Source: Cystobacterineae bacterium
GTDB lineage: Bacteria; Myxococcota; Myxococcia; Myxococcales; Myxococcaceae
Direction: 5' to 3'
Assembly: GCA_009782175.1 (NCBI GenBank)
Contig: WRKR01000022.1
Span: 1 to 44,757, forward strand
Length of the DNA: 44,757 bases
Below the pieces are notes generated by a model that ran no database searches, was not told where the DNA came from, and saw only the letters and a program-made list of their open reading frames with translations. The number at the start of each line of letters is the position of its first letter. Position 1 is the first letter of the stretch. Of the stretch, positions 23,858 through 43,577 are shown one piece after another. Both the position numbers and the translations under genes were made by a program.

Positions 23858-24421
23858 TTATTTGTTTTCTTTCTTTTTGTTTTCTTCTCTTTCGATGGCT
23901 TTGAGCATCTCTTGTGCAAGGCGCCTTGCCCTCATGCTTTGCTCGTTTTTCCCTTCGGGATCCATCTCCACGGCGGCTTTTAAGTCCGTCACAGCTTCAA
24001 TAATTTTTGACTGATAGAGATAAACCTCTGCGCGGTTGACACAAGAAGCAATGTCCTTGGGGTTGAGCTCCAAGGCTCGATTCAGGCTGGCCAAGGCAGC
24101 ATCCAAGCTGAAGCCTTCATCCGAAAACCCAGCCTCGTGGGCTTCCAGTTGAATGGCGCCCAGGGCGGCGTGGAAATACCAAACGTTTGTATTCAGCGCG
24201 ATGAGACCATCATAGATGACTTTCGCATCCTTATAGCGGCCCTGCTGAAAGAGGTTATAGCCTATTTCGGCGATATACATCACCTCATTGCCCGTAATGC
24301 TTTGCTGCAACTCTTCCAGGGGGATTTCCCCGCGAGCATATTTGTCCAACCGCTCCGGGGGAGCAGTCAGCGGTGCGGGTTTTTCTTTTGCCGGTGTTTC
24401 TGCCTTTGGGTTGTCTGTCAT
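23858..24421 (-). CDS. TPR protein, SycD/LcrH-like T3S chaperone candidate
   Basis: A 187-aa cytoplasmic protein. A Pro/Lys-rich N-terminus (about 1-25) precedes three TPR-like units: IAEIGYNLFQQGRYKDAKVIYDGL, AALGAIQLEAHEA...LASLNRALELNP and AEVYLYQSKIIEAVTDLKAAVEMDP. The first matches the class II translocator-chaperone (SycD/LcrH/IpgC) pattern, where small TPR proteins bind secreted substrates. The C-terminus is a charged helix (EREENKKKENK). It follows Gly-rich twin A, from which it is separated by a terminator. GAGG precedes the ATG by 8 nt. The chaperone role is inferred from fold and location. Confidence 0.7.
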   Translation of the reverse strand: MTDNPKAETPAKEKPAPLTAPPERLDKYARGEIPLEELQQSITGNEVMYIAEIGYNLFQQGRYKDAKVIYDGLIALNTNVWYFHAALGAIQLEAHEAGFSDEGFSLDAALASLNRALELNPKDIASCVNRAEVYLYQSKIIEAVTDLKAAVEMDPEGKNEQSMRARRLAQEMLKAIEREENKKKENK

Positions 24422-24530: not shown

Positions 24531-24564
24531 AAAAAAAGGCGCCCCACCAGAAAAGGGCGCCTTT
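24531..24564 (-). terminator. Terminator after Gly-rich twin A
   Basis: AAAGGCGCCC (24535-24544) pairs with GGGCGCCTTT (24555-24564), and the minus strand continues with a T-run. It is part of the duplicated block shared with twin B. Confidence 0.88.
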
Positions 24565-24587
24565 GGAATTTTGATGCTTTCTAAGGA

Positions 24588-24938
24588 CTATCTCATGTTA
24601 TTAATGACTGACATCGCTATCTCATTTTGCTTCTTCAGCATGTTAGTCATCATCGCGATAGTCTCTTGGATGTCCTGCATCTGTGCCTGCATCATCATGT
24701 TATCCATCCCCTTCGACATCATTTTATCGAGCATACCCTGAAAGTCTTGCGCAGATGGACCCGACATTTTTGATATACTACCACCACCACCACCACCACC
24801 GCTGCCGCCGAACATGTCCACTATACCGCCCAACATGTTCGTTATGGAACTGGTGGAGCCCGAAGAGCCACCGCCCATTATCCCTGAAATCATAGAGCCA
24901 ACATTGCCAATCATACTTCCGATGCTTCCAAAATCCAT
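24588..24938 (-). CDS. Gly/Met-rich small protein, twin A; candidate T3S substrate
   Basis: A 116-aa protein of unknown family. The N-terminal half is hydrophobic and Gly/Ser rich (SIGSMIGNVGSMISGIMGGG) and contains a run of seven Gly (about residues 48-54). The C-terminal half is a Met/Gln-rich amphipathic helix ending TNMLKKQNEIAMSVINNMR. A strong AAAAGGAG lies 7 nt upstream. Twin B (28692-29036) is almost identical in the C-terminal half. Location inside a T3S locus, small size, no Sec signal and a C-terminal amphipathic helix all fit an exported, self-assembling T3S component such as a filament, needle or translocon part. This is inference; it lacks the needle-family motif I know. Confidence 0.75.
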   Translation of the reverse strand: MDFGSIGSMIGNVGSMISGIMGGGSSGSTSSITNMLGGIVDMFGGSGGGGGGGSISKMSGPSAQDFQGMLDKMMSKGMDNMMMQAQMQDIQETIAMMTNMLKKQNEIAMSVINNMR

Positions 24939-25308
24939 GGTGTTTCTCCTTTTAAATGGTGTGCAACTTTATCTCTAAAACCCATGAAGATTATCTGTGC
25001 TTGTCGAAAAAAGTTTCTCACACAGTCGATCTTTTTTTCAAAAAAAACACTCACTGTCAATAACTTATTGAAAAAATTATCGAAAAAACACTGACTTTCG
25101 GCCTGAATTTTATCCCTGGGGGCTGAGTTTCGGCCGGCCTCAGGCGAGGCGGCAGGGGCTCGTCCACCCCAAACCAGTCCAGGAGCGCCGTGGCAATATA
25201 GCGGCCATGGCGCAGCTTATCTGAGCTACGCAAAGCACATATGCCTTTGTTTTTATGAGGTTTTTTGAACTTTTTCCTTCTTTTGCCTTGGGGGCCGTGG
25301 CGAAACAA
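24939..25308. other. Spacer upstream of twin A with unrecognised minus-strand frame
   Basis: Includes the conserved leader shared with twin B (to about 25033), an AT-rich stretch, then a more G/C-rich piece (about 25100-25240). A minus-strand frame at 25057-25308 (TTG start, 83 aa, basic N-terminus) covers that piece. It matches nothing I recognise and may be a decayed fragment. Confidence 0.45.
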
Positions 25309-26286
25309 TTATTCCTTCATCCGCTGAAGGGCAGCCCTTGCCTGCGCATGCCCCTGCTCTGCCGCCTCCTTAAACCACTTTTCCGCTTCAGCTTCGTCCT
25401 TTATCACCCCTTCGCCGTCGGCATAGAGCTGCCCAAGGGCGAATTGCGCCTCTGCATCCCCTGCCGCCTTCTTCCACCATTTTGCCGCTTCAGCTGCGTC
25501 CTTGGCCACGCCTTGGCCTTTATAATACATGAGCCCAAGTTTGAATTGCGCCTGCACATGCCACTGCTCTGCCGCCTTCTTAAGCCACTTTGCCGCTTCA
25601 GCTTCGTCCTTTATCACCCCTTCGCTGTCGGCATAGAGCTGCCCAAGTTTGAATTTCGCCTCCGTATCCCCTTTCTTTGCCGCCTTCTTCCACCATTTTG
25701 CCGCTTCAGCTTCGTCCTTGGCCACCCCTTCGCCGTCGGCATAGAGCTGCCCAAGGGTGAATTGCGCATCCGCATGCCCCTGCTCTGCCGCCTTCTTAAG
25801 CCACTTTGCCGCTTCAGCTGTGTCCTCGAACCCCCCTTGGTCGTCGACATAAAGCTGCCCAAGGAAGAATTGCGCCTGTGCATGCCCCTGCTCTGCCGCC
25901 TTCTTAAACCACTTTTCCGCTTCAGCTGTGTCCTCTTTGCCGCTGCCTCTACTGGCATAGAACAGCCCAAGGCCGAATTGCGCCTGCGCATACCCCTGCT
26001 CTGCTGTCTTATTCATCCACTCTAGCAATTCAGCCTCGTCCTCTGGCACCCCCAGGCCTGCGGCAAGCAGCCCAAAAGCCAATTGCACCCCCGCATCCCC
26101 CTGCTTTGCTGCTGGCTGACACTGCTCTGGCACCTCGCAAGCACTTTGCTGGGCGCTGCCTTCTGAGTGGCCTTGAGGTGAAAGTGAAGCATTTTTCACG
26201 CAAGCCAAAACAGAGAATGCCGCCAGGACAGAGCATGCTGTACACATGGCCATGGGGGCCTTCATCAACCCTTGTTTTCTCTTCAT
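25309..26286 (-). CDS. Sel1-repeat lipoprotein
   Basis: A 325-aa predicted lipoprotein. The ATG at 26286 was chosen: basic MKRKQ start, hydrophobic stretch and lipobox SVLAC (Cys about residue 29), with GGGAG just upstream. Seven Sel1-like repeats of about 36 residues follow (typical unit ALGQLYADGEGVIKDEAEAE, then KWFKEAAEQGH). Units are very alike at DNA level, suggesting recent internal duplication. Sel1 proteins are alpha-solenoid scaffolds, often in envelope or host-interaction systems. It lies between sctV and Gly-rich twin A, so a role in the secretion system is possible but not shown. Confidence 0.85.
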   Translation of the reverse strand: MKRKQGLMKAPMAMCTACSVLAAFSVLACVKNASLSPQGHSEGSAQQSACEVPEQCQPAAKQGDAGVQLAFGLLAAGLGVPEDEAELLEWMNKTAEQGYAQAQFGLGLFYASRGSGKEDTAEAEKWFKKAAEQGHAQAQFFLGQLYVDDQGGFEDTAEAAKWLKKAAEQGHADAQFTLGQLYADGEGVAKDEAEAAKWWKKAAKKGDTEAKFKLGQLYADSEGVIKDEAEAAKWLKKAAEQWHVQAQFKLGLMYYKGQGVAKDAAEAAKWWKKAAGDAEAQFALGQLYADGEGVIKDEAEAEKWFKEAAEQGHAQARAALQRMKE

Positions 26287-26372
26287 TTCTCCCGCTCTCT
26301 TGGACTCAAACAGGCCTGACAACACAATGCTCTTCCGCTACATTCAGGGAGGGGCGCTTTTCCAGCAAGGCT

Positions 26373-28493
26373 TCAGCGGGACAGCATAATTTGCGTAATA
26401 ACCTTTATTTGGATTTCGGGGGGCAACTCTTGATAGCTCATAACGGGCAGTGGCGGTGTAAACTCATGTGACAACAGGTTATACACATAACGTCGGACTT
26501 GCATTTTCGTGAGGATGACGGGCCGTTGTGCAGAAGGGCTCACAAAGCCGCATTCCCGCCGGACAGCGCCAACAATCTCCCGGGAAATATCTGGCTCTAT
26601 GGCCAAATAGGCAGAGCCGCTGGCTGAATATTTGATGGACTCTTGAATAATGCGCTCAATATCCCTGTCCAGAGAATAAACCAGCAAAGAAGTGGTTCCC
26701 CGGGCATGCTTGCTGGCAATAGGCCGCCTCAACGCCACGCGCACGTGCTCTGTCAGCATAATGCTGTCTGTCTCCTGGCTGTTTTCAGCAATGGCTTGCA
26801 AAATGCCTTGCATATCGCGAATGGAGACGCCCTCGCCCACAAGGCGTTTGAGAATTTCTGTCAACTTCACAATGCTGACCACCCTGGGGATGGTTTCCTT
26901 AATGAGCGTAGGCGAAATTTTCTCCAGCTGATCCAACATGAATTGGGCTTCTTGTACGCCTATAAAGTCCGGGGCATAGCGTTTGAGCACCGCCGACAAA
27001 TGCAAAATCAGAAAAGCGGGGATGTTCCATACGGTGGGGCCTATAGCGCGCACGGATTCTGCATGGGTGGATGGAACCCAGGCGGCGGCCTGCATGGTGG
27101 CCGGATTCACGCTGGGAGTCCCCGGAATCCCCATCATTTTCAGCCTGTTGACACTCTCGTTGGCGAGCACATGCTTGAGCACCACCTGCCCTAAAACAAG
27201 TGGAACCTCATTGATATAGATGGCATAGCCTGCCGCGGGCAGGCTTGAATTTCCGCGGACCCGGATGCTGGGAAAGCGCACGCCAAGCTCGACAAACAAG
27301 CCGTTGCGCATTTGCGGGATGAGCTCTGACATAAAGCGCCCTTTGTCCGCGCTGGGGTCTACAAACCTGACCAAATCCGGGGCCACTTCCAAAACCACTG
27401 GGGTAACCATGGGGACAAACATTTCGGAATCTGGATTTACAGGGGGCGGGGGCGCCGCGATGGAGGGTGCCACAACATCCTCATCCTCTTCTTCAGTGTC
27501 CACGAGTTTAGGTGGCGGTTTAATGCCTTCTTTCTCTTTTTTCATGAGCCAATAACCAAAGCCTCCCACAATGCCTCCCAGCAGAAGAAAGGGGACGGTG
27601 GGAAGCCCTGGAATAGCCCCAAACACCAACAGCATGCCGCCTGCAATGGCCAATGCCCTGGGGTATCGCGTCAGCTGTGTCGTCACATCCTTCCCCAGGT
27701 GTGTGCCCTCTTCTTCTCCTCCGACGCGTGTGACGATAATGCCGGCGGCCGTTGAAATGAGAATGGCAGGAATCATCCCCACCAAACCATCTCCAATGGT
27801 CAACAAAGTATATTTGCGGGCTGCAGCGTCAATGCCCATTCCCTTCTGCATCACGCCAATGGCGAGGCCTCCGACAATGTTCACCACCGTCACAATAATA
27901 TTGGCAATGGCATCGCCTTTGACAAACTTCATGGCGCCGTCCATGGCACCCATCAAAGCGCTTTCTCGCTCCAAGTCTCTGCGGCGACGCTTGCCTTCTT
28001 CTGTATCAATGACGCCGCCGCGCATATCCGCGTCAATGGACATCTGCTTGCCTGGCATGGCATCCAAAGTAAAGCGCGCGCCCACCTCAGAGACGCGCTC
28101 GGAGCCTTTGGCGATAACCAGAAAGTTCACAATAACCAGGATGATAAAAACAATGGCGCCGACGACAAAATTGCCTGCGGCCACAAAATTGCCGAAGGCG
28201 ACAACCACCTCACCCGGGTCGCCCGTGGAAAGGATTAAGCGCGTGGTTGAAACAGAGAGCGCCAGCCTATACAGCGTCGTCAGCAACAACAACGTTGGGA
28301 AAATAGAAAGGTTTAAGGCCTTGGGCACATAGAGGGAAATGAGCAAAATCAGCACCGACAAGCTGATGTTGATGGTCAACAAGACGTCCAGCAACATGGT
28401 CGGCAACGGAATCAACATCATTCCGATGATGGCAATGACCAACCCAGCTAAAACGACGTCGGAATATTTGCTAATGAACCGATTTTCGCTCAT
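26373..28493 (-). CDS. sctV: T3S export gate protein SctV (FlhA/YscV family)
   Basis: Major export-gate subunit (706 aa). The N-terminal half (about residues 15-325) has the multi-helix membrane domain with the FHIPEP-family signature around DAMPGKQMSIDADMRGGVID and the cytoplasmic loop GKRRRRDLERESALMGAMDG. The C-terminal half forms the nonameric ring that docks chaperone-substrate complexes. The ATG at 28493 (AGGGA upstream) is preferred over the TTG codon just before it. A terminator (28632-28668) separates it from Gly-rich twin B, so it must have its own promoter in the 28494-28640 spacer or depend on read-through. Confidence 0.96.
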   Translation of the reverse strand: MSENRFISKYSDVVLAGLVIAIIGMMLIPLPTMLLDVLLTINISLSVLILLISLYVPKALNLSIFPTLLLLTTLYRLALSVSTTRLILSTGDPGEVVVAFGNFVAAGNFVVGAIVFIILVIVNFLVIAKGSERVSEVGARFTLDAMPGKQMSIDADMRGGVIDTEEGKRRRRDLERESALMGAMDGAMKFVKGDAIANIIVTVVNIVGGLAIGVMQKGMGIDAAARKYTLLTIGDGLVGMIPAILISTAAGIIVTRVGGEEEGTHLGKDVTTQLTRYPRALAIAGGMLLVFGAIPGLPTVPFLLLGGIVGGFGYWLMKKEKEGIKPPPKLVDTEEEDEDVVAPSIAAPPPPVNPDSEMFVPMVTPVVLEVAPDLVRFVDPSADKGRFMSELIPQMRNGLFVELGVRFPSIRVRGNSSLPAAGYAIYINEVPLVLGQVVLKHVLANESVNRLKMMGIPGTPSVNPATMQAAAWVPSTHAESVRAIGPTVWNIPAFLILHLSAVLKRYAPDFIGVQEAQFMLDQLEKISPTLIKETIPRVVSIVKLTEILKRLVGEGVSIRDMQGILQAIAENSQETDSIMLTEHVRVALRRPIASKHARGTTSLLVYSLDRDIERIIQESIKYSASGSAYLAIEPDISREIVGAVRRECGFVSPSAQRPVILTKMQVRRYVYNLLSHEFTPPLPVMSYQELPPEIQIKVITQIMLSR

Positions 28494-28631
28494 CAAAAGT
28501 CCCTACACCGAAAGTGCCCGCATTCTGGCTTTTCTTACGAGCTTTCTTTGAAGTCAAACGAAAAGCCCACATGCGCATAAACATGCAGGCAGATGACAAC
28601 AACTTCTATCAGTGGCTTTCAAATTGAAAAC

Positions 28632-28668
28632 AAAAAAAGCGGCGCCCCACCAGGAATAGGGCGCCTTT
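28632..28668 (-). terminator. Terminator after Gly-rich twin B, upstream of sctV
   Basis: GGCGCCC (28641-28647) pairs with GGGCGCC (28659-28665), and T7 follows on the minus strand. It is homologous to the twin A terminator. Confidence 0.87.
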
Positions 28669-28691
28669 GGGATTTTGATGCTCTCTAAGGA

Positions 28692-29036
28692 CTATCTCAT
28701 GTTATTAATGACTGACATCGCTATCTCATTTTGCTTCTTCAGCATGTTAGTCATCATCGCGATAGTCTCTTGGGTGTCCTGCATCTGTGCCTGCATCATC
28801 ATGTTATCCATCCCCTTCGACATCATTTTATCGAGCATACCCTGAAAGTTTTGCGCAGATGGACCCGACATTTTTGATATACCACCACCACCACCACCAC
28901 CACCTCCTCCTCCACCGAACATGTCCACTATACCGCCCAACGTGCCCATGATGCCACTGCTGGAGCTCGAAGAGCCACCGCCCATTATCCCTGAAATCAT
29001 AGAGCCAACATTGCCAATTATACTTCCGATATCCAT
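28692..29036 (-). CDS. Gly/Met-rich small protein, twin B; candidate T3S substrate
   Basis: A 114-aa paralogue of twin A. The N-terminus MDIGSIIGNVGSMISGIMGG, a longer Gly run (GGGGGGGGGGGG) and an identical C-terminal helix except for one or two residues (QNFQGML versus QDFQGML, DTQET versus DIQET). It has the same AAAAGGAG leader. Differences concentrate in the Ser/Thr/Gly hinge, while the Met/Gln-rich helix is preserved, suggesting that the helix is the functional part. Role as for twin A: inferred exported or assembly component of the T3S system. Confidence 0.75.
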   Translation of the reverse strand: MDIGSIIGNVGSMISGIMGGGSSSSSSGIMGTLGGIVDMFGGGGGGGGGGGGISKMSGPSAQNFQGMLDKMMSKGMDNMMMQAQMQDTQETIAMMTNMLKKQNEIAMSVINNMR

Positions 29037-29562
29037 GGTGTTTCTCCTTTTAAATGGTGTGCAACTTTATCTCTAAAACGCATACAGACTATCTATGGTT
29101 GTCGAGAAAAACCTCTCACACAGTCGATCTTTATTTGTTGACAGAAAGAGAAATTTCTTTCTGTTAAATGACATATATATTGTCGACGGAGACAAACATT
29201 TGTTTCTCGAAAAACAAACAAAAAACATCTTTTTTTATTTGTGTCTTTGATTGCGCAAAACATTTCACACAGAAAGGGGTTTGCGAGAAAACCGTCAATA
29301 ATAACAATATATTAATATGGAACACAAAGAGTGTGTTTTGCGCAAAAATTCAAATACAGAACACAAACTAAACTGAGTGTTCGGGTTTAGACATAAAACA
29401 CAAACACTCTAAACCAGACTGAGTGTTTGTATGCTGCCACAAAAGACATACACTTTAAGCCGGTTTTATGTTGAAGTGAGTGTGGCGAGCACAGCACAAC
29501 GTTGGAGGCGAGCTAAAGCTTGTCTGCGCTCTGCTCCATTTCCTTCGTTCTGTGCGGGGGTG
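29037..29562. promoter_or_regulatory. AT-rich spacer with nested inverted repeats
   Basis: After the conserved leader (to about 29133) the DNA becomes strongly AT-rich, unlike the rest of the locus. Inverted repeats include TGCGCAAAAC at 29252-29261 with 29335-29344, and ACAAACACTC at 29400-29409 with 29421-29430. CTAAAC/GTTTAG pairs lie near 29368-29390. A GGCGAGCTAAAGCTTGTCTGCGCTC dispersed-repeat copy is at about 29504-29530. No gene. Likely control region for twin B. Confidence 0.6.
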
Positions 29563-30042
29563 TTATCGGGAGCTGCGAAGGAGTGAGAGCATGGCTTGAG
29601 CTTTTTTGTGCAGCTTGTCTTTGGGGGGCAAAAGCCGCATGGCAAGCAGCAAGTCTTCGGCTGCTTGTTTGCGTTGTCCCAAGGCCAGCCTCGCTTCTGC
29701 TCTGCCTATAAAAACCGAGGCGTCTTTGGGCGCCAGGCGCAGGGCAATATCAAAAGCGGCCAGGGCATCCTGCGCGTTGCCTGCGGCCAACTCAACCACG
29801 CCCAGGGCCTTGGCAAAATAAATGTCTGTGGGGCTAATGGCATAAAGCCCTTGGAATAAGGTGCGGGCTTCTCGAATTTTCCCCTGCATGAAAAACTGGT
29901 GGCCAAACCGTGCAATGCTATAAAGCTCCGCATCGGTATATCCGCGTACTTCTTTCAGGCTTGCTTTGCGGTCTATCCAACGTTGCAACATTTCCTGAGG
30001 CGAAGGGGAGGCGGCAGGAGAGGACACCGGGGGTTGTTTCAT
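29563..30042 (-). CDS. TPR protein, SycD/LcrH-like T3S chaperone candidate
   Basis: A 159-aa protein from the ATG at 30042 (AGGGGAAAG upstream); the frame is open to a TTG at 30085-30087. After a Pro/Ser-rich start, TPR units read LYSIARFGHQFFMQGKIREA, AKALGVVELAAGNAQDALAAF and VFIGRAEARLALGQRKQAAED. Order and spacing match SycD/LcrH class II chaperones. It is the last gene of the long operon and lies directly upstream of Gly-rich twin B, so it may serve that protein. The C-terminus is a short basic helix. Confidence 0.72.
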   Translation of the reverse strand: MKQPPVSSPAASPSPQEMLQRWIDRKASLKEVRGYTDAELYSIARFGHQFFMQGKIREARTLFQGLYAISPTDIYFAKALGVVELAAGNAQDALAAFDIALRLAPKDASVFIGRAEARLALGQRKQAAEDLLLAMRLLPPKDKLHKKAQAMLSLLRSSR

Positions 30043-30083
30043 GGCTTTCCCCTTTTCCACCAAACAGCCAAGCATGCAACCAT

Positions 30084-30566
30084 TCAATAGCCTTCTTTTC
30101 TTTGCTCCTCCTGGCGAAGTCGCTCAACTTCATCCAGGTTTTCACTTATTTCACCCACCAAGCGCAACATGTTTTCTTCATAGGCCAGCATGGACTTTAA
30201 ACGCTCCAGGCGATCTGCAGGCACATTCAAAACCATCAACTGTTTTTTGAGTTTGCCAAGCGACTCGGAAGTGCCGCGCTCCAAGGCCTGCGCCAACTCT
30301 TCACGCTCTGAAAAAGCATTTGAAGCGTCTTCTTTTCCACTCCAAGGCATGGGAGGGGATGGCAACCTCAGCTCTTCTGAAGAGCGGGCAGGGCCTATAA
30401 ACTCCAACAAAGCCGCAGAAGCCAGCGGGGCAGACTGGGCGTCACGCTTCCGGCTTGTCTGCCTGCTCTCCAACTGCGAGGAGCGAATCAGCTTCTCTTG
30501 AACATTTCTTGCCCCTCCCCATGACCACATGGGGGACTTTGGCGGTGGTGAATTTATATTCGACAT
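30084..30566 (-). CDS. Unknown T3S-locus protein (160 aa)
   Basis: I do not recognise this family. Residues 1-90 are Ser/Pro-rich and probably disordered (MSNINSPPPKSPMWSWGGAR start, no Sec signal). Residues about 90-160 form a charged coiled coil ending RLVGEISENLDEVERLRQEE. A disordered N-terminus plus a coiled coil is typical of T3S-exported or chaperone-bound proteins, and the gene sits between the FhlB-like gene and a TPR chaperone. It could be a substrate of that chaperone or a gatekeeper-like regulator; neither is shown. Confidence 0.6.
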   Translation of the reverse strand: MSNINSPPPKSPMWSWGGARNVQEKLIRSSQLESRQTSRKRDAQSAPLASAALLEFIGPARSSEELRLPSPPMPWSGKEDASNAFSEREELAQALERGTSESLGKLKKQLMVLNVPADRLERLKSMLAYEENMLRLVGEISENLDEVERLRQEEQRKEGY

Positions 30567-30919: not shown

Positions 30920-31975
30920 CTATTTGTTGTGGCTTAGGCCATAGACAAAATTCAAAACCTCAGCCACAGCATCATATAACTCTTCGGGAATTTCACTGCC
31001 TATCTCGATGCGAAACAAGGCATGCGCCAAGGGCACATTCCTCAATATGGCCACATCATGCCGACGCGCCAGCTCCTTTATGCTTTGTGCACGGCTGTCC
31101 AAGCCTTTGCAAAGCACACGCGGAGCACTGTCTTGCTCTTTGTCATATTTCAGGGCAACCGCCACATGCTCCGGATTGGTCACCACAAAGTCCGCATCCG
31201 CCACCGCCGCCATTTGGGCCCCCTCCATAATTTCATGATGCATTTGCTTTCGCTTGGCCTTGCTATGTGGATCTCCCTCAGACTCCTTATATTCACGCTT
31301 GACTTCCTGCATGCTCATCATCATCTTCTTGCGATAACTATAGTGTTGAAACCACACATCAAAAATCGCAAAAGCCAAATAGGCCAAGCTGACTTGCACC
31401 ACCAGCCTAAAAATCAACTCCCCCATCAGCGCCATGGTGACATTGGCTTCTTGAGTTACGGTCAGCGTAATGAATTTCAGCGCATCCTGAATCACCAGAT
31501 AAACCACAAAACCCGTAACACCCATCTTCACCAATGACTTGGGCAACTCCATGAGTTTTTGTTGAGAAAACAGATTTTTAAGGCCACTTAAAGGGTTGAG
31601 TTTGTCCAGCTTGGGCATCAATACTTTGGGGCTAAACAAAGCACCTACCAACAAAAAATCCGTCAAACTCCCCACCACCGCGCAGGAGATAACCACCGGC
31701 AAGGAAAGCAACAACACATTCCATATGCCCATGTTGAGCGCATCGCGTATGGCTTGAGAGATGTTTTCAGGCTGAGCAATGGCATCAAAAGTAAACAAAA
31801 ACATCATGTTAATGCGATCTTCCCAAAAGGGCCACATGCTTTTTAATACGCCCATGGCCACCACAAAACCCAAGACACTCTTTAAGTCCTGGCTCTTCCA
31901 AACATTGCCATCTTTGCGCGCATCCCGAATTTTTTTGGACGTGGGTTGTTCTGTTTTTTCTCCGCCTTCAGCCAT
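30920..31975 (-). CDS. sctU: T3S export switch protein SctU (FlhB/YscU family)
   Basis: 351 aa from the ATG at 31975 (AAAGGAG 7 nt upstream). The EKTEQPTSKK-like N-terminus, typical of the family, is followed by four membrane helices (about 32-210). A linker with KREYKESEGDPHSKAKRK and the autocleavage region NPEH (267-270) come next; most relatives have NPTH, so Thr is replaced by Glu while Asn-Pro is kept. The C-domain ends in FVYGLSHNK. SctU closes the export gate and switches substrate class after self-cleavage. It is downstream of sctT with a 16-nt gap. Confidence 0.96.
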   Translation of the reverse strand: MAEGGEKTEQPTSKKIRDARKDGNVWKSQDLKSVLGFVVAMGVLKSMWPFWEDRINMMFLFTFDAIAQPENISQAIRDALNMGIWNVLLLSLPVVISCAVVGSLTDFLLVGALFSPKVLMPKLDKLNPLSGLKNLFSQQKLMELPKSLVKMGVTGFVVYLVIQDALKFITLTVTQEANVTMALMGELIFRLVVQVSLAYLAFAIFDVWFQHYSYRKKMMMSMQEVKREYKESEGDPHSKAKRKQMHHEIMEGAQMAAVADADFVVTNPEHVAVALKYDKEQDSAPRVLCKGLDSRAQSIKELARRHDVAILRNVPLAHALFRIEIGSEIPEELYDAVAEVLNFVYGLSHNK

Positions 31976-31991
31976 CTTAAGCTCCTTTCCT

Positions 31992-32822
31992 TCAACCCAG
32001 AAGGCCGATGGCGCGACCAAAGCGCAGAAACATGACGTTGTATTCCTGGCTGAGGCGCCCCACCATCAGGTGCAGCGAAACAATAACCATCAACGCCGTC
32101 ACAGCAGGCTTTATTTGCATGGCCATGAAAAACACTTGTATTTGGGGAGCCGCGCGGTTGATGACGCCCAGCGCCGCTTCTGTGAGGAAAATAGCGAGCA
32201 ATATGGGTGAGGCCAAAATCAACCCAATGCGAAACAAATCGCCAAATACCCGCAGGACAACCTCAATAAACGGCCACATCCCCAGAGAAAAACGGGGAAA
32301 CTCATTCAAAGGTACCTTCAAAAAACTATCGGCCAAAGCTTCAATAACCCAATGGTGTCCATTCAGCGTTAAAAACAACACCACCACCAGTTGAAGCTTC
32401 AATGAAGAATAGAGGGTTACTCTGTGCTGTATTTGGGGCACAAACATTTGTGCCTGGGTGGAGCCTGAAAAAATGTCCATAAATGCCCCGGCTGCCCCAG
32501 CAAATTTAAAAACCAAATCCACAATAAACGCCAAAGAAAAACCAATAAAAACCTCTTTGAGCAACAAGGCCAAATAGGGAACCACCTCAATGGGAATTTG
32601 CGCCATCTGCTCGCTTAACGCAGGAAACAACAAAGCACCCAATATCACCCCCAAACCCATGCGCGCTTGCGCCGGAATGCTTTCTCCTCCAAGAAAAGGC
32701 GTAAAAATAACCACCGGCAACAATCGCGCCAGAATGAGCGCCATTGAAAAAACGGCCAGACTCAAGTCAACTCTAATTCCAAACTCGTTGCGCGCCTGAG
32801 TCAGAATTTCATCCAAATTCAT
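31992..32822 (-). CDS. sctT: T3S export gate protein SctT (FliR family)
   Basis: 276 aa, six or so membrane helices (for example MALILARLLPVVIFTPFLGG and FIGFSLAFIVDLVFKFAG). With SctR and SctS it builds the helical inner-membrane export channel. FliR-family features include the GxxIPAQARMGLG loop and a C-terminal LMVGRLSQE segment. The ATG overlaps the sctS stop by 4 nt (ATGA). Confidence 0.95.
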   Translation of the reverse strand: MNLDEILTQARNEFGIRVDLSLAVFSMALILARLLPVVIFTPFLGGESIPAQARMGLGVILGALLFPALSEQMAQIPIEVVPYLALLLKEVFIGFSLAFIVDLVFKFAGAAGAFMDIFSGSTQAQMFVPQIQHRVTLYSSLKLQLVVVLFLTLNGHHWVIEALADSFLKVPLNEFPRFSLGMWPFIEVVLRVFGDLFRIGLILASPILLAIFLTEAALGVINRAAPQIQVFFMAMQIKPAVTALMVIVSLHLMVGRLSQEYNVMFLRFGRAIGLLG

Positions 32823-33085
32823 GGAGCAACCATGTTGGGGAACTGATCGAAAATCCTAAAAGTAAACCTCAACAGCTGTGTCCCTATCCACCCACCGGCA
32901 ACGCCAAGCGTTCCAAATACGGCTATCAGCTTGGGAGCAAAGGAAAGCGTCTGCTCCTGAATTTGCGTGGTCGCTTGCACAACAGAAATGGTGACACCCA
33001 CAACCAAACTCATGAGCACAGGTAAAGCGGCTGTCAACAACACGAGATATAAGGCTTGCTGCGTTAAAAAAGTCAGTTGATGCAT
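32819..33085 (-). CDS. sctS: T3S export gate protein SctS (FliQ family)
   Basis: 88 aa with two membrane helices separated by the conserved polar loop (VQATTQIQEQTLSFAPKL), diagnostic of FliQ/SctS. Four copies wrap around SctR5-SctT in the export gate of known systems. It lies 15 nt after sctR and overlaps sctT. Confidence 0.96.
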   Translation of the reverse strand: MHQLTFLTQQALYLVLLTAALPVLMSLVVGVTISVVQATTQIQEQTLSFAPKLIAVFGTLGVAGGWIGTQLLRFTFRIFDQFPNMVAP

Positions 33086-33100
33086 GGCAATGCGACTCCG

Positions 33101-33895
33101 TCAGAGATAACCAGAAACCAAACCCTTGGCGATAAGATACCAGCCATCCACCAACACAAAAATGAGCAACTTAAATGGCATGGATATGGTTGTCGGCGAC
33201 AACATATGCATGCCCAAAGCAAGCAAAATGTTGGCCACCAACATGTCGATGACAATGAAAGGAATAAACAACAAAAACCCAATTTGGAAAGCCTGCTTGA
33301 GCTCTGAAACCACAAATGCGGGCGTCAATATGAGAAAATCATCCGGCCCAATGTCATCTCTGTCTGCCGGCGCCCTCATCTTGCGCGCAAGGCTATAAAA
33401 AAGCGTCTTGTCTTTGGCTGAAACTCGCTTTTTTAAAAAAGTCCGCAAAGGCTCTTTCGCTTTCTGGGCAGCCTCCATCAGCTGCCCTGCGGACTTCGCA
33501 GAAAGCAGCCCCTCGCTGTTCTGAATGTCGGCAGGGTTCGCCTCGCGGTACATCTCCTGGAGTGTCGGTGACATGATGTAGACCGTCAAAATAATCGCCA
33601 ACCCCGTAATCACTTGCGTAGGCGGAATTTGCTGCGTGCCCAGGGCTGAACGCACAATGGACAAAACCACTGAAATTTTGACAAAGCTGGTCACCATCAG
33701 CAGCACAAAAGGGGCAAGCCCCATCGCTGCCAAAACCAACAACAATACCATGGGCCGGCTGGCATAGGAGTCCGGCGTTAGTGTGTCTACGGACAAAGAC
33801 TGAGGGCCGCCACGCCTCTGCGCCAAAACCCACATGGGAAATATGGACGCTATCAACAACCCAATTCTAAAAAAACGCGCATTCCAAGTCCTCAC
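33101..33895 (-). CDS. sctR: T3S export gate protein SctR (FliP family)
   Basis: 264 aa beginning with GTG (33895) that overlaps the FliO-like stop (GTGA). An N-terminal cleavable-type signal (FFRIGLLIASIFPMWVLAQ) resembles flagellar FliP, which is often made with one; injectisome SctR usually lacks it. FliP-family signatures VLLMVTSFVKISVVLSIVR, LGTQQIPPTQV and FIPFIVIDMLVANILLALGM are intact. Core pore subunit of the export gate. Confidence 0.95.
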   Translation of the reverse strand: MRTWNARFFRIGLLIASIFPMWVLAQRRGGPQSLSVDTLTPDSYASRPMVLLLVLAAMGLAPFVLLMVTSFVKISVVLSIVRSALGTQQIPPTQVITGLAIILTVYIMSPTLQEMYREANPADIQNSEGLLSAKSAGQLMEAAQKAKEPLRTFLKKRVSAKDKTLFYSLARKMRAPADRDDIGPDDFLILTPAFVVSELKQAFQIGFLLFIPFIVIDMLVANILLALGMHMLSPTTISMPFKLLIFVLVDGWYLIAKGLVSGYL

Positions 33896-34677: not shown

Positions 34678-34693
34678 GCTTGCTCCTGCAAAT

Positions 34694-34945
34694 TTATGAG
34701 CCTTCAACGGCAATCAGCCTTATGCCCAATTGTCCGTCGAACTCGACCAGTTCACCTTGTCCAACTGTCTTTCCATTGACAACCAAGTTCAATGGATCTG
34801 AGGCAAGTCGACCTAGATCGATCACATGCCCTACTTTCATTTCAACAACCTCTTCTATGGTCACTGGAATGCGTGCAAGCTCGACAACAAGCCTCAAAGG
34901 CACATCGCTCAACAGTGGTGCAGCACTCAGTTGGTTTGGGTCCAT
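34694..34945 (-). CDS. Internal translation product SctQ-C (SpoA2 domain)
   Basis: The internal in-frame ATG (34943-34945, MDPNQLSAAPLLSD) is preceded at 5 nt by AAAAGGGG. The 83-aa product is exactly the C-terminal SpoA domain. In several known T3S systems, such a short form is made by internal initiation and is needed with full-length SctQ. The call here rests on position and ribosome-binding site only. Confidence 0.55.
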   Translation of the reverse strand: MDPNQLSAAPLLSDVPLRLVVELARIPVTIEEVVEMKVGHVIDLGRLASDPLNLVVNGKTVGQGELVEFDGQLGIRLIAVEGS

Positions 34946-36007
34946 TATTTCCCCTTTTCTTTTGCCCCTATCAGAAAGATTGTGGTCAAGGCTTTCTGAT
35001 ACTGTGCCTAGAGTTATTTTTTCAACCTCTGCTTTATACCCTCTCCCGTCAAAACCAAGCTGACAATCCAAATGGCCCGAAAAACCCGCGCCAATTCGCA
35101 ATTCAGCGCTTCCGTCCGCTCGCTTATCCGGTCTCAAAGTGAGCTTATCTAAAAGTACAGTCGCCCCTGGGCGAAGCCCTTCATATTCAGCCTTGGGAAT
35201 CTCCGCATGCCCAATCTCCACGCGCAAAGACAAATTGGGCAATGCAAGGCGATCTTTTGCTCGAATCAAATTTTGCTGCATTCTATAGGCTCGAACAGGT
35301 GCATCCGCATGCGGCTGCAATTTGGACAACACTGTCGCAGGAATAAAAAACCGAAAACATCCCTTATGTCCATCGACGCTGGCCGACAAACTCATCAACA
35401 CCATATGCGTCTCTGAGGCCATCAACGGCATAACGGCTTTGCTGCTGCTAAAAATATTGTCCAGGCGAACATGAACCTTCCCAGCCCCAGCGTTGACAAA
35501 CATCGTCCTTAAAACCTGCAAAGCAAGAAATTGAAGAATGCCTTCTTCCAGCTCCGTCAATGCACGAATTTCAACGGATTCACTGTTGGCGCCAAGCAAC
35601 AGCTCAACCGCTTTGTGTGCAAAGCCAAGCTCAATTTCCCAAAAACCCCTCGGCTGGTATGGCCGAAATGACAACACCGCCAAAAAAGTGGGCTCAGCAA
35701 CGCAGGACGGCAACGCAGAAACAGGCACAACTTGAAAATAATCAAAAGTCAGCTGAACATCTTCGCTCTGAAGACAATTTTTGAGTGTTTGAGCTATTGC
35801 CTCCAACATCTCAAAAGGCTCAGCAAATGCCGGGAATAACCACTCCAAACTCTTAAAGAGTTGTGCCTCTTGACGAGAAACTTTGGGGAGGTTGGGAAAA
35901 AACTCTACCTTTTTCCAAGAACACATTGAAAGCAGATCATTCTGCGTCAGCAGCATGGTGCTGTCAGCTGCCCGCCGAGAAGGGGTTATTTTGCTTGTAT
36001 CTGTCAC
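34694..36007 (-). CDS. sctQ: T3S sorting-platform / C-ring protein SctQ (FliM/FliN family)
   Basis: 437 aa, GTG start overlapping the sctP stop (GTGA). The N-terminal part (about 1-240) resembles the FliM/SctQ middle region only loosely. Two SpoA domains follow: SpoA1 at about 255-340 (LSLRVEIGHAEIPKAEYEGL) and SpoA2 at about 362-437 (RLVVELARIPVTIEEVVEMK ... GQGELVEFDGQLGIRL). SctQ forms the cytoplasmic pods or ring that sort substrates. An internal ATG at 34945 with its own GGGG Shine-Dalgarno would give the SpoA2 domain alone, as known for YscQ and SpaO. Confidence 0.93.
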   Translation of the reverse strand: MTDTSKITPSRRAADSTMLLTQNDLLSMCSWKKVEFFPNLPKVSRQEAQLFKSLEWLFPAFAEPFEMLEAIAQTLKNCLQSEDVQLTFDYFQVVPVSALPSCVAEPTFLAVLSFRPYQPRGFWEIELGFAHKAVELLLGANSESVEIRALTELEEGILQFLALQVLRTMFVNAGAGKVHVRLDNIFSSSKAVMPLMASETHMVLMSLSASVDGHKGCFRFFIPATVLSKLQPHADAPVRAYRMQQNLIRAKDRLALPNLSLRVEIGHAEIPKAEYEGLRPGATVLLDKLTLRPDKRADGSAELRIGAGFSGHLDCQLGFDGRGYKAEVEKITLGTVSESLDHNLSDRGKRKGEIMDPNQLSAAPLLSDVPLRLVVELARIPVTIEEVVEMKVGHVIDLGRLASDPLNLVVNGKTVGQGELVEFDGQLGIRLIAVEGS

Positions 36008-37023
36008 GAGTTCATCTCAAATTTCAGATGGGTCAGCGTCAAGCCCCGCACATCCAACGCCGTATGCAAAGCGTCACTTTGCTCTTCAACCACCTTTAAA
36101 GCATTCTTGTCGGAACCAGAGAAAACCACGCTTATTTTTCCACCGGATGATGAAACCCGCATAGAAAGCCCGGACAAAACATCCGAGCGAAAATCAATCT
36201 GAAATTCTGCATTGCCTGCTTTGTTGGTTCCAACACGCACCCGCTCAACAATTTTTTGAGCAATCTCGCTGGCAATCCTCCTTAGGCGCTCAGAATCACC
36301 TGTGGGCTTTGGACGAACAAGGGGGGCTGGCTCCATGAGGGCGGGATTGGTGTTGAGCAACCTCCCCAAATCCTCCTGGGGCTCTTTGTTTGAGCGCTTA
36401 AGCTCAGCGGCTTGACGCATATCTGAAGTCTTCTCTTCTGCCCTTATACTTTTGCTCTCTTCTCTGGCTGCAGTGTATTTCTTGGCATCCGATTTGGCTT
36501 GAGCAGAACGGCCCTCTACTTGGCTCTCCGTCTCTGAAGCAGACTTCTTCCCCACCTCTGCTTGCTCTCGTGTTTCTGTCTTGGAAAGGTTTCTATCGCC
36601 TTGCTGAAGTTTTGTCGCTTGCTCCTGGCTGTGCTGCGTGCTCTGTTCTTTCAGCTGCTTCTGGGAGAGGGGCTTATTGTTTTCTGAAGACGCTTTTGCG
36701 GATTCACCTTCTTGCCCCATCAACTCTCGCAACACCGCATTGCTTTCTCCTCCAGCGCGTGCATATCTGCCCAACACGCGCTCTTTGTCCGCTTGCATTC
36801 GCGCGGCCGAGGAGGGATCTGCCTTTTCTAAAAATTTTGCATGAGCCTCCGAGGCATGTCCTCGGTTAATGTTTTGCCCCTGCTGTTTTTGGCTATCGCT
36901 AACAAGTCGAGAAAAAACAGTGTTTGTTGCTTGTTTGTCAACTCGGAGCTTGTCTTCTATGCGCCTTTGCTCCGCAACGCGCTCAGCCTGGCGAGCTGCC
37001 CCATCATCATCAATTCTGCTCAT
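36004..37023 (-). CDS. sctP: T3S needle/hook-length regulator SctP (FliK family)
   Basis: 339 aa. The first about 240 residues are polar, Gln/Lys/Glu/Ser rich and probably extended, as expected for a molecular ruler. The C-terminal about 95 residues (from LRRIASEIAQKIVERVRVG to LTLTHLKFEMNS) match the FliK/Flg_hook substrate-switch domain that contacts SctU. It overlaps both neighbours by 4 nt (ATGA with sctO, GTGA with sctQ). Assignment rests on the C-domain pattern plus gene order. Confidence 0.8.
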   Translation of the reverse strand: MSRIDDDGAARQAERVAEQRRIEDKLRVDKQATNTVFSRLVSDSQKQQGQNINRGHASEAHAKFLEKADPSSAARMQADKERVLGRYARAGGESNAVLRELMGQEGESAKASSENNKPLSQKQLKEQSTQHSQEQATKLQQGDRNLSKTETREQAEVGKKSASETESQVEGRSAQAKSDAKKYTAAREESKSIRAEEKTSDMRQAAELKRSNKEPQEDLGRLLNTNPALMEPAPLVRPKPTGDSERLRRIASEIAQKIVERVRVGTNKAGNAEFQIDFRSDVLSGLSMRVSSSGGKISVVFSGSDKNALKVVEEQSDALHTALDVRGLTLTHLKFEMNS

Positions 37024-37520
37024 GTTTTTCCCCCTCTCCTTCTTTGTAAGTGCAAGGCGTTGCCAATCTCCTCTTGCACAAGCTCTTCTCGCATTTGCCG
37101 TTCATAACGCACTTGTTTAGCCCATTGCTCTTTGTGTTTCTCAATGGCTTTCTTCTCTTTGGCCGCCTCTGCCATTTCCGACCTTTTTTGCTCCATCCAC
37201 TGCTCCGCTCGCTTCACATTTCCTTCTTGCGCCCCTATCTCCAGCTCCAGCTTCGCCTCCTCATCCTTCAGCCTTTGCTCAAAACGCTCAAATTGCTCAA
37301 ATGCGTTGGCCTGAAGCGCTTGCGCGGATAAGACGGATTGCATATGAGCAAGCACCTTCTCTTTGCGTTCCTGTTGCCGCCTTGTCAAATGGGAACGCAT
37401 CTCTTCTAAAATTTTTTTCTGCTTGTGCAAAGCCTGCATCGCCTCAGAAAAAACCTGCTTTGCAGCTTCCTCCGCTCGTTCCCGCATTTCTAGCAAAGTT
37501 TGCAGTCGATAAGCTGGCAT
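37020..37520 (-). CDS. sctO: T3S ATPase stalk protein SctO (FliJ/YscO family)
   Basis: 166 aa, almost entirely one long antiparallel coiled coil (LQTLLEMRERAEEAAKQVFS start, basic tail). FliJ/SctO sits in the central pore of the SctN hexamer, like the gamma subunit of F1, and links it to SctV. Size, coiled coil and position right after sctN are diagnostic. Confidence 0.88.
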   Translation of the reverse strand: MPAYRLQTLLEMRERAEEAAKQVFSEAMQALHKQKKILEEMRSHLTRRQQERKEKVLAHMQSVLSAQALQANAFEQFERFEQRLKDEEAKLELEIGAQEGNVKRAEQWMEQKRSEMAEAAKEKKAIEKHKEQWAKQVRYERQMREELVQEEIGNALHLQRRRGGKT

Positions 37521-37535: not shown

Positions 37536-38852
37536 TCACGCTTCAAATAAAGCAACGAGTGCTGCTGCTGTGTCTTCAAAACTGACACTGCTGTCCGTGG
37601 ACTGTTTCAAAAAACCGATGATAGCGTCATATTTGTCAATGGCATAGTCCGTTCGTGGATCTGTCCCATATTGATAGGCGCCAAGCAAAATCAAATCCCT
37701 TTGTTTTTCATAGGTTGCAAGGGCTTCCCGAAGTTTTCCTGCGGCAACTTTGTGCTTTTTGTCGACCACTTGATTCATGACGCGGGACAAGGAAGCCAAA
37801 ACATCCATGGCCGGCCATTGGTTGCGCTCTGCGAGGGTGCGGTTTAAAATGAAGTGTCCGTCCAGAATACCGCGTACTTCGTCGGCAATGGGCTCTTCCA
37901 TGTCGCCACCGGCAACCAAAACCGTATAAATGGCCGTGCATTTGCCTTTCTCAGAATTCCCGGTCCTCTCGAGGATTTTGGGGAGCATGGAAAACACAGA
38001 GGGAGGATATCCCTGGCGTGCAGGGGGCTCTCCTATGGCCAAACCAATTTCACGCTGTGCTCTTGCAAGGCGCGTCACGGTATCCAGCATGAACAAGACG
38101 TTGCCCCCACGCTCTCGAAAATATTCTGCAATGGAGGTAGCCACAAAAGCAGCACGCAAACGCACCAAAGAAGGTTGGTCTGAGGTTGCGCAAACCACAA
38201 TAGAACGCTTAAGCCCCTCTCCCAGCGCATCTTCCACAAACTCCAAAACCTCGCGACCGCGCTCGCCAATCAGTGCAATAACGGCCAACTCGGCAGCCGT
38301 GTTGCGCGCAATCTGCCCCATCAACGTAGACTTGCCAACACCAGAGCCTGCAAAAAGCCCTATACGTTGTCCTTCGCCCACCGTCAGCAACCCATCAATG
38401 CAACGCACCCCCAAAGGCAATGGCCTCAAAATACGTTGGCGCTTGTATGGATCTGGACACTCCCGGTCCACGGACCATTCTATCAACCCCTCTTTAGGCA
38501 AAGGACGACCATCAATGGGCTCTCCCAAACCATTGAGTACGCGACCCAACAAGGCATCTCCTACGCGAATGTTCAAAGGGCGACCTGTGGAAAGCACTTC
38601 ACTGTCTGGGCCTATGCCTTGCAGTTCTCCCAGAGGCATCATCATTACCTCATCCCCTTGAAAACCCACCACCTCCGCTTTGACAGCTGCACGGTTGCGC
38701 CCTTTTATAAAACACAACTCACCCACACGCACGTTGGGCACAGCCGCCTTAATCACCAAACCTGTCAGCTCTGTGACACGCCCACGCACGCCGACCAATT
38801 GCGCATTCCTGAGCAAGTTTTGATAGCGCCCCCAGGGAATTGCAAGGTCCAT
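37536..38852 (-). CDS. sctN: T3S ATPase SctN (FliI/YscN family)
   Basis: 438 aa from the ATG at 38852; a TTG two codons earlier overlaps the sctL stop. The N-terminal beta-barrel (about 1-90) is followed by the RecA-type core with Walker A GSGVGKST (169-176), the VLFMLDTVTRLARAQREIG Walker B region, and the GEPPARQGYPPSVFSMLP signature that separates T3S ATPases from F1-beta. The hexamer unfolds substrates and releases chaperones. Catalytic motifs are complete. Confidence 0.97.
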   Translation of the reverse strand: MDLAIPWGRYQNLLRNAQLVGVRGRVTELTGLVIKAAVPNVRVGELCFIKGRNRAAVKAEVVGFQGDEVMMMPLGELQGIGPDSEVLSTGRPLNIRVGDALLGRVLNGLGEPIDGRPLPKEGLIEWSVDRECPDPYKRQRILRPLPLGVRCIDGLLTVGEGQRIGLFAGSGVGKSTLMGQIARNTAAELAVIALIGERGREVLEFVEDALGEGLKRSIVVCATSDQPSLVRLRAAFVATSIAEYFRERGGNVLFMLDTVTRLARAQREIGLAIGEPPARQGYPPSVFSMLPKILERTGNSEKGKCTAIYTVLVAGGDMEEPIADEVRGILDGHFILNRTLAERNQWPAMDVLASLSRVMNQVVDKKHKVAAGKLREALATYEKQRDLILLGAYQYGTDPRTDYAIDKYDAIIGFLKQSTDSSVSFEDTAAALVALFEA

Positions 38853-38854
38853 TC

Positions 38855-39556
38855 TCAATCCGCCTTCCCCAAAGCATCCTCTTCAAACAGAATACGCAGT
38901 GCTCTAAACTGAGTTTCCAGTTGAGCGTCAATGGTCCCAAACTCGGTTTGCACAATGCAACCTCCGGGCTGCACCTCCAGATCGTCCCGAATGGCAATGT
39001 CAACACTGCGCCCAATCAGCTCTATAAGCTCAGGCCGCCTCTCTCGAAGCAATTTGGCATCCCGCGGGTGAACGCGCAAAAGCATGGCCTTGGCTGTTCG
39101 CAAATTCTCAATGGCGTTTGCACAAATTTCCAAAAGCAGCTGCGGCTCCCTCTCCAAATCCCTGCCAATCATTTTTTCGGCAATCTGGCAGGCCAACTCA
39201 ATAAGCTCCTTTTTGGCCTCTGCCAACATACTGCCTGCTTGCATCTTCGCCTTGGCCAACTCCGTGGCGGCCTGAGCTGCAGCTTCTTCCAACGCTTCCT
39301 CACGTGTTTCTTGAAAAACAAGTGCGCGCTGGCGCTCAGCATCCTCTAACAACTCTCGGGCTTTTTGTTCAGCCTCTTCGATGATGCCTTTGGCTTTCGA
39401 GCGTGCATCCACCTCTTCGGGACGCACAACAATGCCACGTATGGGGGGGGAACGCATGGCTGCCGCAGGTTTAAGGGGTGATGGATCGCTGGACAAACCC
39501 CCAGGAATAATTTTTCCTGAGCTTCTGAGTGGCCCCTTGTTGTCAATATCTGCCAT
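38855..39556 (-). CDS. sctL: T3S ATPase regulator SctL (FliH/YscL family)
   Basis: 233 aa. N-terminal about 45 residues are disordered. A long Ala/Glu/Lys-rich helix (about 50-125: ARSKAKGIIEEAEQKARELL and on) leads into the FliH C-domain (about 130-230, with LACQIAEKMIGRDLEREPQL and VQPGGCIVQTEFGTIDAQLE). The latter, DxxLxPGGCxIET-like, is a hallmark of the family. SctL dimers link SctN to SctQ. GGAG lies 8 nt before the ATG. Confidence 0.94.
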   Translation of the reverse strand: MADIDNKGPLRSSGKIIPGGLSSDPSPLKPAAAMRSPPIRGIVVRPEEVDARSKAKGIIEEAEQKARELLEDAERQRALVFQETREEALEEAAAQAATELAKAKMQAGSMLAEAKKELIELACQIAEKMIGRDLEREPQLLLEICANAIENLRTAKAMLLRVHPRDAKLLRERRPELIELIGRSVDIAIRDDLEVQPGGCIVQTEFGTIDAQLETQFRALRILFEEDALGKAD

Positions 39557-41352: not shown

Positions 41353-42126
41353 CTATCCTGTCCTCTTTGCAGCACGGCTCTTTAGGAAAATCCATATGGA
41401 GACGCCGGCCACCAGCAAAATTAAAAAACCAGCTCCGCCTACCACCACCAGACGAAATTGGTCCGCGCTGGATTTGGTCATTTGGAAACCAAACACTGTC
41501 TGCAGGCGATCTTTTAGATCTAACTCAGCCTGGGGAGGCGCCGCAAGCACCATGAGGACTTGAACCGCTTCAGGCGCCAACTGTGGCACTGCGGCTGCCA
41601 CAAAACGCCGTATGGAAGGCTCATCCATGGGAGGCTTTTCTTCTTCTCTGGACGTGCGATATTTAATAAACACCGACGCTGAAGGCCTGGGCCTCTCCGC
41701 GTCAGGCACCAGATCGTTAGACTCGGGCAGCATGACCAAAGTCCTCACCTCTAAAATTCCAGGGACTCGGTTGAGCGCATTCGAAATTTCCCCTCCCAAA
41801 GCCTCAAGCAGCATGGCCCGCTCCTCCGTCTGTGTTGGAATCATCCCCTTATTCTTTTTAAACAGGGAAAGCCCGTCCGCACGAACCCGAGGCAAAGAGT
41901 TGTCCGTCAGCAACTGCACAGCGTTGACGGCATCGGCTTTAGGAACGCTGATAATATAGGTAGCTTCGTCAGCTTCAACGCGCTGTTTAGACGCCTGAAT
42001 GCTGTTGCGTTGCAGCAACACATAAATTTCGTTGGCTTCTTCTTCGGATAGATCATGCTGCAAATTCTCAACACAAGCGACCAAACCAATGCCCAACAAG
42101 GCAACAAACCCATATTTTCGGAACAT
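41353..42126 (-). CDS. sctJ: T3S inner-membrane ring lipoprotein SctJ (YscJ/FliF family)
   Basis: 257 aa from the ATG at 42126; the longer open frame to 42204 lies in the terminator region. MFRKYGFVALLGIGLVAC is a lipoprotein signal with lipobox LVAC (Cys about residue 18). The periplasmic RBM domains follow (YVLLQRNSIQASKQ..., LEGELSRALN-like LLEALGGEISNALNRVPGIL, then SVFIKYRT). One C-terminal membrane helix ends the protein (VVGGAGFLILLVAGVSIWIF, about 226-247). Lipid anchoring and shortness mark the injectisome type (SctJ), not flagellar FliF, which is larger and not lipidated. No Shine-Dalgarno is evident. Confidence 0.95.
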   Translation of the reverse strand: MFRKYGFVALLGIGLVACVENLQHDLSEEEANEIYVLLQRNSIQASKQRVEADEATYIISVPKADAVNAVQLLTDNSLPRVRADGLSLFKKNKGMIPTQTEERAMLLEALGGEISNALNRVPGILEVRTLVMLPESNDLVPDAERPRPSASVFIKYRTSREEEKPPMDEPSIRRFVAAAVPQLAPEAVQVLMVLAAPPQAELDLKDRLQTVFGFQMTKSSADQFRLVVVGGAGFLILLVAGVSIWIFLKSRAAKRTG

Positions 42127-42184
42127 AAGCTTTGCGAGACTACACGAAGCTTCCAAAAAAAGCGGCCCAAAAGAAGCAACTTTT

Positions 42185-42215
42185 AAAAAAAAAGCGGCCC
42201 CCAAGTGCCGCTTTT
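42185..42215 (-). terminator. Intrinsic terminator between sctI and sctJ
   Basis: AAAGCGGC (42191-42198) pairs with GCCGCTTT (42207-42214) around an 8-nt loop, and the minus strand continues with a run of nine T. It lies inside the operon, after sctI and before sctJ, so it could lower expression of downstream genes relative to the rod protein. Confidence 0.85.
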
Positions 42216-43569: not shown

Positions 43570-43577
43570 AGCGACTC

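Follow-up and report, generated by a model that had tools for sequence, protein, structure and literature searches.

How a type III secretion system (T3SS) that lacks its own outer-membrane secretin could build a needle, and from which protein, is the question raised by a locus of a Cystobacterineae bacterium (Myxococcaceae; GCA_009782175.1, contig WRKR01000022.1). The stretch analyzed, called the window here, is the entire contig of 44,757 nucleotides, in a genome of 2.70 Mb that is 99.95% complete. The right half of the window is a T3SS locus with sctI-like, sctJ, sctL, sctN, sctO, sctP-like, sctQ, fliO, sctR, sctS, sctT, sctU and sctV genes, a sigma factor gene and genes for TPR proteins (Table 1). 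No secretin was found among the 28 open reading frames (ORFs) scanned in the window; elsewhere the genome encodes three, of which one passes the PilQ cut-off, one passes the GspD cut-off and the third is unassigned; none of the three reached the SctC cut-off. The locus has the sct core genes without a T3SS secretin, the combination that marks the T3SS*, and the window system is the T3SS* known from the literature as 'needleless'. Two small genes, one on each side of sctV, are nevertheless likely to encode divergent SctF-like needle subunits of this myxobacterial secretin-less T3SS.

Analysis of the ORFs and a block alignment confirmed what the sequence-only reading had described, namely two near-identical blocks of about 500 bp flanking sctV, each with leader and terminator and coding for proteins of 114 and 116 residues; the poly-Gly stretch of these proteins is real, as is their C-terminal helix rich in Met and Gln. 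Alignment of positions 24536-25045 with 28640-29140 gave 461 identical columns out of 514, 17 of the 514 being gap columns, with local identities of 96% over 260 nt (24550/28654), 89% over 147 nt (24777/28884) and 88% over 117 nt (24922/29020). This likeness is far beyond chance. Strong, duplicated terminators with stems of 11 pairs follow both genes, and a search for a sigma-70 promoter in the two twin regions found none. Only two of the final 60 codons differ between the twins, both non-synonymously; as there is no synonymous change, their near-identity is attributed to recent duplication or gene conversion and not to demonstrated constraint.

The relationship to needles was revealed by profile A4, built from 22 proteins encoded at the same position in related loci, between a TPR chaperone gene and sctV (the slot). 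It comprises 20 of the 25 proteins listed from named loci and the two window proteins; L128:11871, L131:12274, L169:12221, L175:10074 and the 400-residue protein of L179 were left out, second copies among them. Against 177,635 distinct PDB sequences, the best 12 matches of A4 were all needle-related (E 1e-5 to 5e-3), the next match being at 0.73. Ten of these are MxiH/PrgI entries, one of them a PrgI-SipD fusion, matched over nearly the full length of the needle (E 2e-4 to 8e-4), and another is a fusion (E 5e-3) whose name joins lethal factor with a type III secretion system protein. The top match, also ranked first by profiles A1 and A5 (E 0.0012 and 0.0009), was the 43-residue chain F of the needle-chaperone entry 7y6c (E 1e-5), which bears the depositor's name of co-chaperone and which we read as a probable C-terminal fragment of the needle. 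Ten of the 22 A4 members matched the Pfam needle model at E<=1 (best 3.6e-7). Searched singly, one of nine short-family members matched the needle model in Pfam, and likewise in NCBIfam, amid unrelated weak matches.

Over 147 genomes of the class, the Pfam model T3SS_needle_F exceeded its gathering score (29.4 bits) in two, G025 (33.0 bits, two tandem genes) and G059 (33.5 bits), both times in slot orthologues (L115, L116), and it passed the curated cut-off in none of 14 control genomes. Among the 65 hits listed at E<=0.1, 35, including some longer paralogues or sctI, share a contig with a window-type sctV, all within 25 kb of it and 18 within 10 kb; for 25, which are on a different contig from sctV, no distance can be given, and five belong to genomes without a window-type sctV. 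That the resemblance is a coincidence of Met/Gln-rich amphipathic helices, in cytoplasmic proteins unrelated to SctF, appears very improbable. The low-complexity composition and the fact that the window proteins alone match nothing are what such a coincidence has in its favor, but chance similarity was largely refuted by the reversed A4 control of the same composition, which found no needle in the PDB (best E 0.24), by the needle-related top matches of A4 and by the landing of the independent Pfam model on the same slot.

Since Pfam does not detect the window pair when it is searched alone, we call it SctF-like, a remote homologue and not a formal Pfam member; on the evidence of A4 and of the slot orthologues above the Pfam cut-off, the sequence-only statement that the twins match no family has to be corrected accordingly. 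Like SctF (PF09392; MxiH, PrgI, YscF, EscF), the family consists of mostly small, probably helical proteins whose conserved part is C-terminal, with an SctF-like ending (I/V-x-N-hydrophobic, often followed by a final K or R), encoded in a T3SS locus and giving a near full-length profile match. Unlike SctF, the window copies are below detection alone, carry a Gly-rich N-terminal extension, are present in several copies and are encoded in a locus without a secretin, at a position other than before sctI.

Searching with a single twin protein revealed arrays of short genes in relatives, in the constant order sctU, FlhB-C-like gene, conserved unknown gene, TPR chaperone, one to seven short genes, TPR genes, sctV. 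The slot is filled in Myxococcaceae, including Myxococcus xanthus, by one to seven near-identical copies, and the encoded proteins are mostly of 71-76 residues in named species and of 171-400 residues in others. In the array of G050 the copies differ by 0-7 of 216 nt. One genome (G052) has a copy away from T3SS genes (L040) in addition to its slot copy (L108). As the window protein alone retrieved no relative from the named-genome contigs, the alignment of the neighboring chaperone was used as query for the named genomes and gave 58 loci, mostly of Myxococcaceae, including M. xanthus AM003, whose slot gene encodes 74 residues (L132:6957-7178, minus strand). By hand count, 31 named loci have both the chaperone slot and sctV, and in 17 of them the slot gene was found by profile. 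The remaining 14 comprise L175, with two genes identified by the needle-like-end motif, 11 loci with a slot ORF of 211-268 residues whose tail looks needle-like by eye, and L157 and L167, where no needle-like gene was found at the slot. Two genes of the same-genus contig G001:C178 (L175) end in a classical-looking IIQNFR tail. In other classes of the phylum (L076-L105, e.g. L081, L084 and L089), a needle-like C-terminal helix ends larger, scattered proteins, in open frames of about 300-1400 residues, with up to 11 matches per genome (G190).

Across the 147 genomes of the class, a family profile match was found in 111 (E<=1e-3) and an SctV-like gene in 122 (E<=1e-10), the latter number also including further FHIPEP systems, among them a second T3SS type at about 42% identity. 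A hand count gave 108 genomes with both, three with the family only, 14 with SctV only and 22 with neither (Fisher p 8e-14, in a test that treats genomes as unrelated). The sequence-only reading had named homologues widespread in genomes free of type III secretion as the finding that would speak against it; only three of the 111 lack an SctV match (G099, G104 and G105), and all three are incomplete genomes (66-81% complete). These data support a multi-copy needle-like gene family locked to the T3SS* locus. Together with the needle profile match, the slot orthologues that pass the Pfam cut-off and the locus placement, the co-occurrence with SctV also favors the earlier guess of an exported, polymerizing component, export and polymerization being what we infer for the twin proteins from these relationships.

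The upstream regions of the needle-like genes share the motif GGAAACTYC-N14-GATAATC. In 12 genomes scanned, 35 sites were found in eight genomes, 31 of them at most 200 nt upstream of a family gene, and the backward pattern used as control gave none; the spacing was 14 at all 35 sites, though 10-16 free bases were allowed. A looser motif (one mismatch, second half beginning with S) matched in 12 of 16 genomes, again with none for the control, and the Myxococcus copies, read by eye, apparently have one extra spacer base and CATAATC. The consensus promoter of the flagellar sigma-28 factor (FliA) has an 8-N11-8 layout ending in CGATAA. Judged against this consensus, the needle-gene motif resembles the sigma-28 type in its layout, and because of this promoter type at the needle-like genes the sigma factor of the locus is called FliA-like. 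In the window, the match at the 24588 copy lies 50 nt upstream of the start codon and is the sole one at three or fewer mismatches; at least one such match occurred in 39 of 100 shuffles, so that it is not significant alone. The arrangement is like that of flagellar late genes under FliA, in that a filament gene stands behind a sigma-28-type promoter and a sigma factor is encoded in the locus, and unlike it in that the promoter belongs to a needle-like gene of a non-flagellar system, with a presumed pairing of sigma factor and promoter.

The four sites not assigned to a family gene precede other genes. One encodes a 593-residue LysM protein (L187:780-2558, plus strand) whose C-terminal domain is VgrG3-like (PF21277, E 2e-50), a candidate lytic T3SS* substrate, and another a DUF1521 protein inside a T3SS locus (L190:1900-3015, minus strand). 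Proteins of 1258 residues (L188:1024-4797, minus strand) and 247 residues (L186:1283-2023, plus strand) gave no Pfam match at E<=0.01, and in G133 the motif accompanies a needle-like gene that lies outside the T3SS locus (L189:3144-3362, minus strand).

Several observations weigh against the twins being the needle. Taken alone, P0001 and P0002 matched no Pfam family, and the Pfam needle model omits both in their own genome. With their Gly-rich N-terminal extension they reach 114-116 residues, classical needles having about 80. The ratio of non-synonymous to synonymous substitution rates (dN/dS) was about 0.25-0.38 in three pairs, which indicates moderate constraint only. The exact promoter motif is missing in four of the 12 genomes scanned (G024, G128, G016 and that of the window), and the promoter of the 28692 copy looks degenerate. 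AlphaFold gave the M. xanthus and window proteins a mean predicted local distance difference test score (pLDDT) of 54 and 51; because this confidence is low, the structure speaks neither for nor against a needle. The longer paralogue and the type of the neighboring chaperones, considered in the next two paragraphs, belong to the same side of the balance.

The first gene of contig C42, whose start repeats the right end of the window, is a longer needle-like paralogue (C42:127-672, minus strand; G000). The claim that the locus has no other needle gene therefore holds within the window and fails at this contig. Given the overlap of about 124 nt and the synteny in relatives (L042, L122), the paralogue most likely heads an operon running into the window. 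Such proteins have about 160-220 residues, a Gly-rich middle and the C-terminal motif of the short family, and are encoded near sctI in both T3SS types. In the second type (L112:6585-15468), the long SctF-like gene stands directly before sctI and sctJ, the classical needle position, so that a role of the twins as an accessory or as a second filament is conceivable. It is possible, though on balance rather unlikely, that the longer paralogue is the true needle and the twins another exported part (tip, plug, extension or second filament) sharing the needle's C-terminal helix. In the window-type system the long gene also neighbors the sctI-side operon (L042, L122), its profile matches PrgI weakly in the C-terminal part (E ~1), and the copy number of the short gene varies from 1 to 7; however, the short slot family has the stronger, near full-length needle match, is of the right length in most named species and includes the orthologues that pass the Pfam cut-off.

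The classical clients of LcrH/SycD-type chaperones are translocators, not needles. Exported translocator-like or early substrates could mimic the needle helix to dock, without forming a polymer, which we regard as improbable for the twins. The adjacent chaperones, one A4 member that also matches SseC (E 4e-5) and the larger proteins ending in the same helix in other classes point in this direction, but the window proteins have no SseC match, 71-76 residues are too few for any known translocator, and tandem amplification fits a bulk structural protein.

The original report of the T3SS* is said to be that of Thiery et al. in 2022. The T3SS* cluster of M. xanthus (MXAN_2434-2464), as described in PMC10433427, resembles the window locus in its export apparatus, ATPase, C-ring and several LcrH-like chaperones. 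The M. xanthus AM003 locus L132, found with the window chaperone as query, has the gene order of the window and from its gene content would be this cluster. Unlike the window locus, the cluster is presented without a needle homologue in PMC12075869, PMC10433427 and PMC3459982. PMC3459982 describes myxobacterial systems without secretin and SctF, the latter lost in the lineage; the system is called needleless or without needle homologues in PMC12075869 and PMC10433427, and the needle-less label recurs in PMC11509652. In the tree of non-flagellar T3SSs the T3SS* is given a basal position. PMC12075869 proposes Kil pilus tips as a stand-in for the missing needle, and PMC3459982 uses the missing needle to argue that this lineage lost an ancestral SctF. 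A needle subunit in the T3SS* locus would change both arguments, and the needle-like family gives a specific gene to address in M. xanthus, the promoter motif being a route to the effectors of the T3SS*. We found no paper tying Myxococcota type III secretion to a needle protein in a search of open-access literature, so that priority is not proven.

If the twins are needle subunits, TPR chaperones of the LcrH/SycD type may bind the sticky C-terminal helix and hold it in the cytoplasm until the subunits are exported by the SctN/SctRSTUV apparatus. The subunits would then polymerize through the conserved C-terminal helix and form a helical tube that stands on the SctJ/SctI base, with the Gly-rich N-terminal part as an added flexible extension. 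The twins would be transcribed under the locus-encoded flagellar-type sigma factor, much like flagellin under FliA, and the additional gene copies would supply the dose required by the polymer. The needle could end in the periplasm or pass out via another secretin. The chances seem even that the T3SS* as a whole works in this way, building a needle from multi-copy SctF-like subunits without its own outer-membrane secretin, ending in the periplasm or exiting via a partner Kil/Tad pilus secretin, and switched on by the flagellar-type sigma factor of the locus, whose promoter also precedes candidate cargo. In that case the T3SS* would stand between flagellum and injectisome as a genuine secretin-free needle machine.

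Table 1. Coordinates of the twin genes, their signals and the surrounding T3SS locus in the window
Feature	Position	Strand	Basis or remark
Needle-like gene, copy upstream of sctV (114 aa, P0002)	28692..29036	-	ORF list, relatives
Needle-like gene, copy downstream of sctV and Sel1 gene (116 aa, P0001)	24588..24938	-	ORF list, block alignment
Intrinsic terminator, 24588 copy	24535..24564	-	
Intrinsic terminator, 28692 copy	28641..28665	-	
Flagellar (sigma-28)-type promoter match, 24588 copy, AGAAACTTT-N14-GATAATC	24989..25018	-	2 mismatches to relatives' motif
Degenerate counterpart, 28692 copy, GAGGTTTT ... GATAGTC	29087..29116	-	Position hand-counted from leader
TPR protein resembling LcrH/SycD T3SS chaperones	23858..24421	-	E 8e-14, below curated cut-off
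Sel1-repeat gene, between sctV and 24588 copy	25309..26325		
sctV export gate	26373..28496	-	FHIPEP; NCBIfam SctV above cut-off
TPR protein resembling LcrH/SycD T3SS chaperones; slot marker in relatives	29563..30087	-	E 2e-27, below curated cut-off
sctU	30920..32020	-	
sctT, sctS, sctR	31992..33895	-	
sctQ	34694..36007	-	FliM/FliN-like
sctP-like and sctO	36004..37520	-	sctP-like weak, HpaP/FliK; sctO YscO-like
sctN ATPase and sctL stator	37536..39556	-	
sctJ	41353..42204	-	
sctI-like inner rod	42288..42851	-	Weak
Sigma factor	42745..43596	-	sigma70 regions 2 and 4
TPR protein resembling LcrH/SycD	44006..44452	-	Weakly CdsG
Right end of window, ~124 nt repeated at start of contig C42	44634..44757		1 mismatch, by eye

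For two conserved proteins of the locus (window 30084-30566 and 43578-43967), neither Pfam (E<=0.1) nor NCBIfam (E<=0.01) gave a match. Long repeats, resembling KLPPADTELSPVG and PSPPPEITEARR, occur in the FliO-like protein and the FliG_C-containing protein (window 33892-34713 and 39586-41310).

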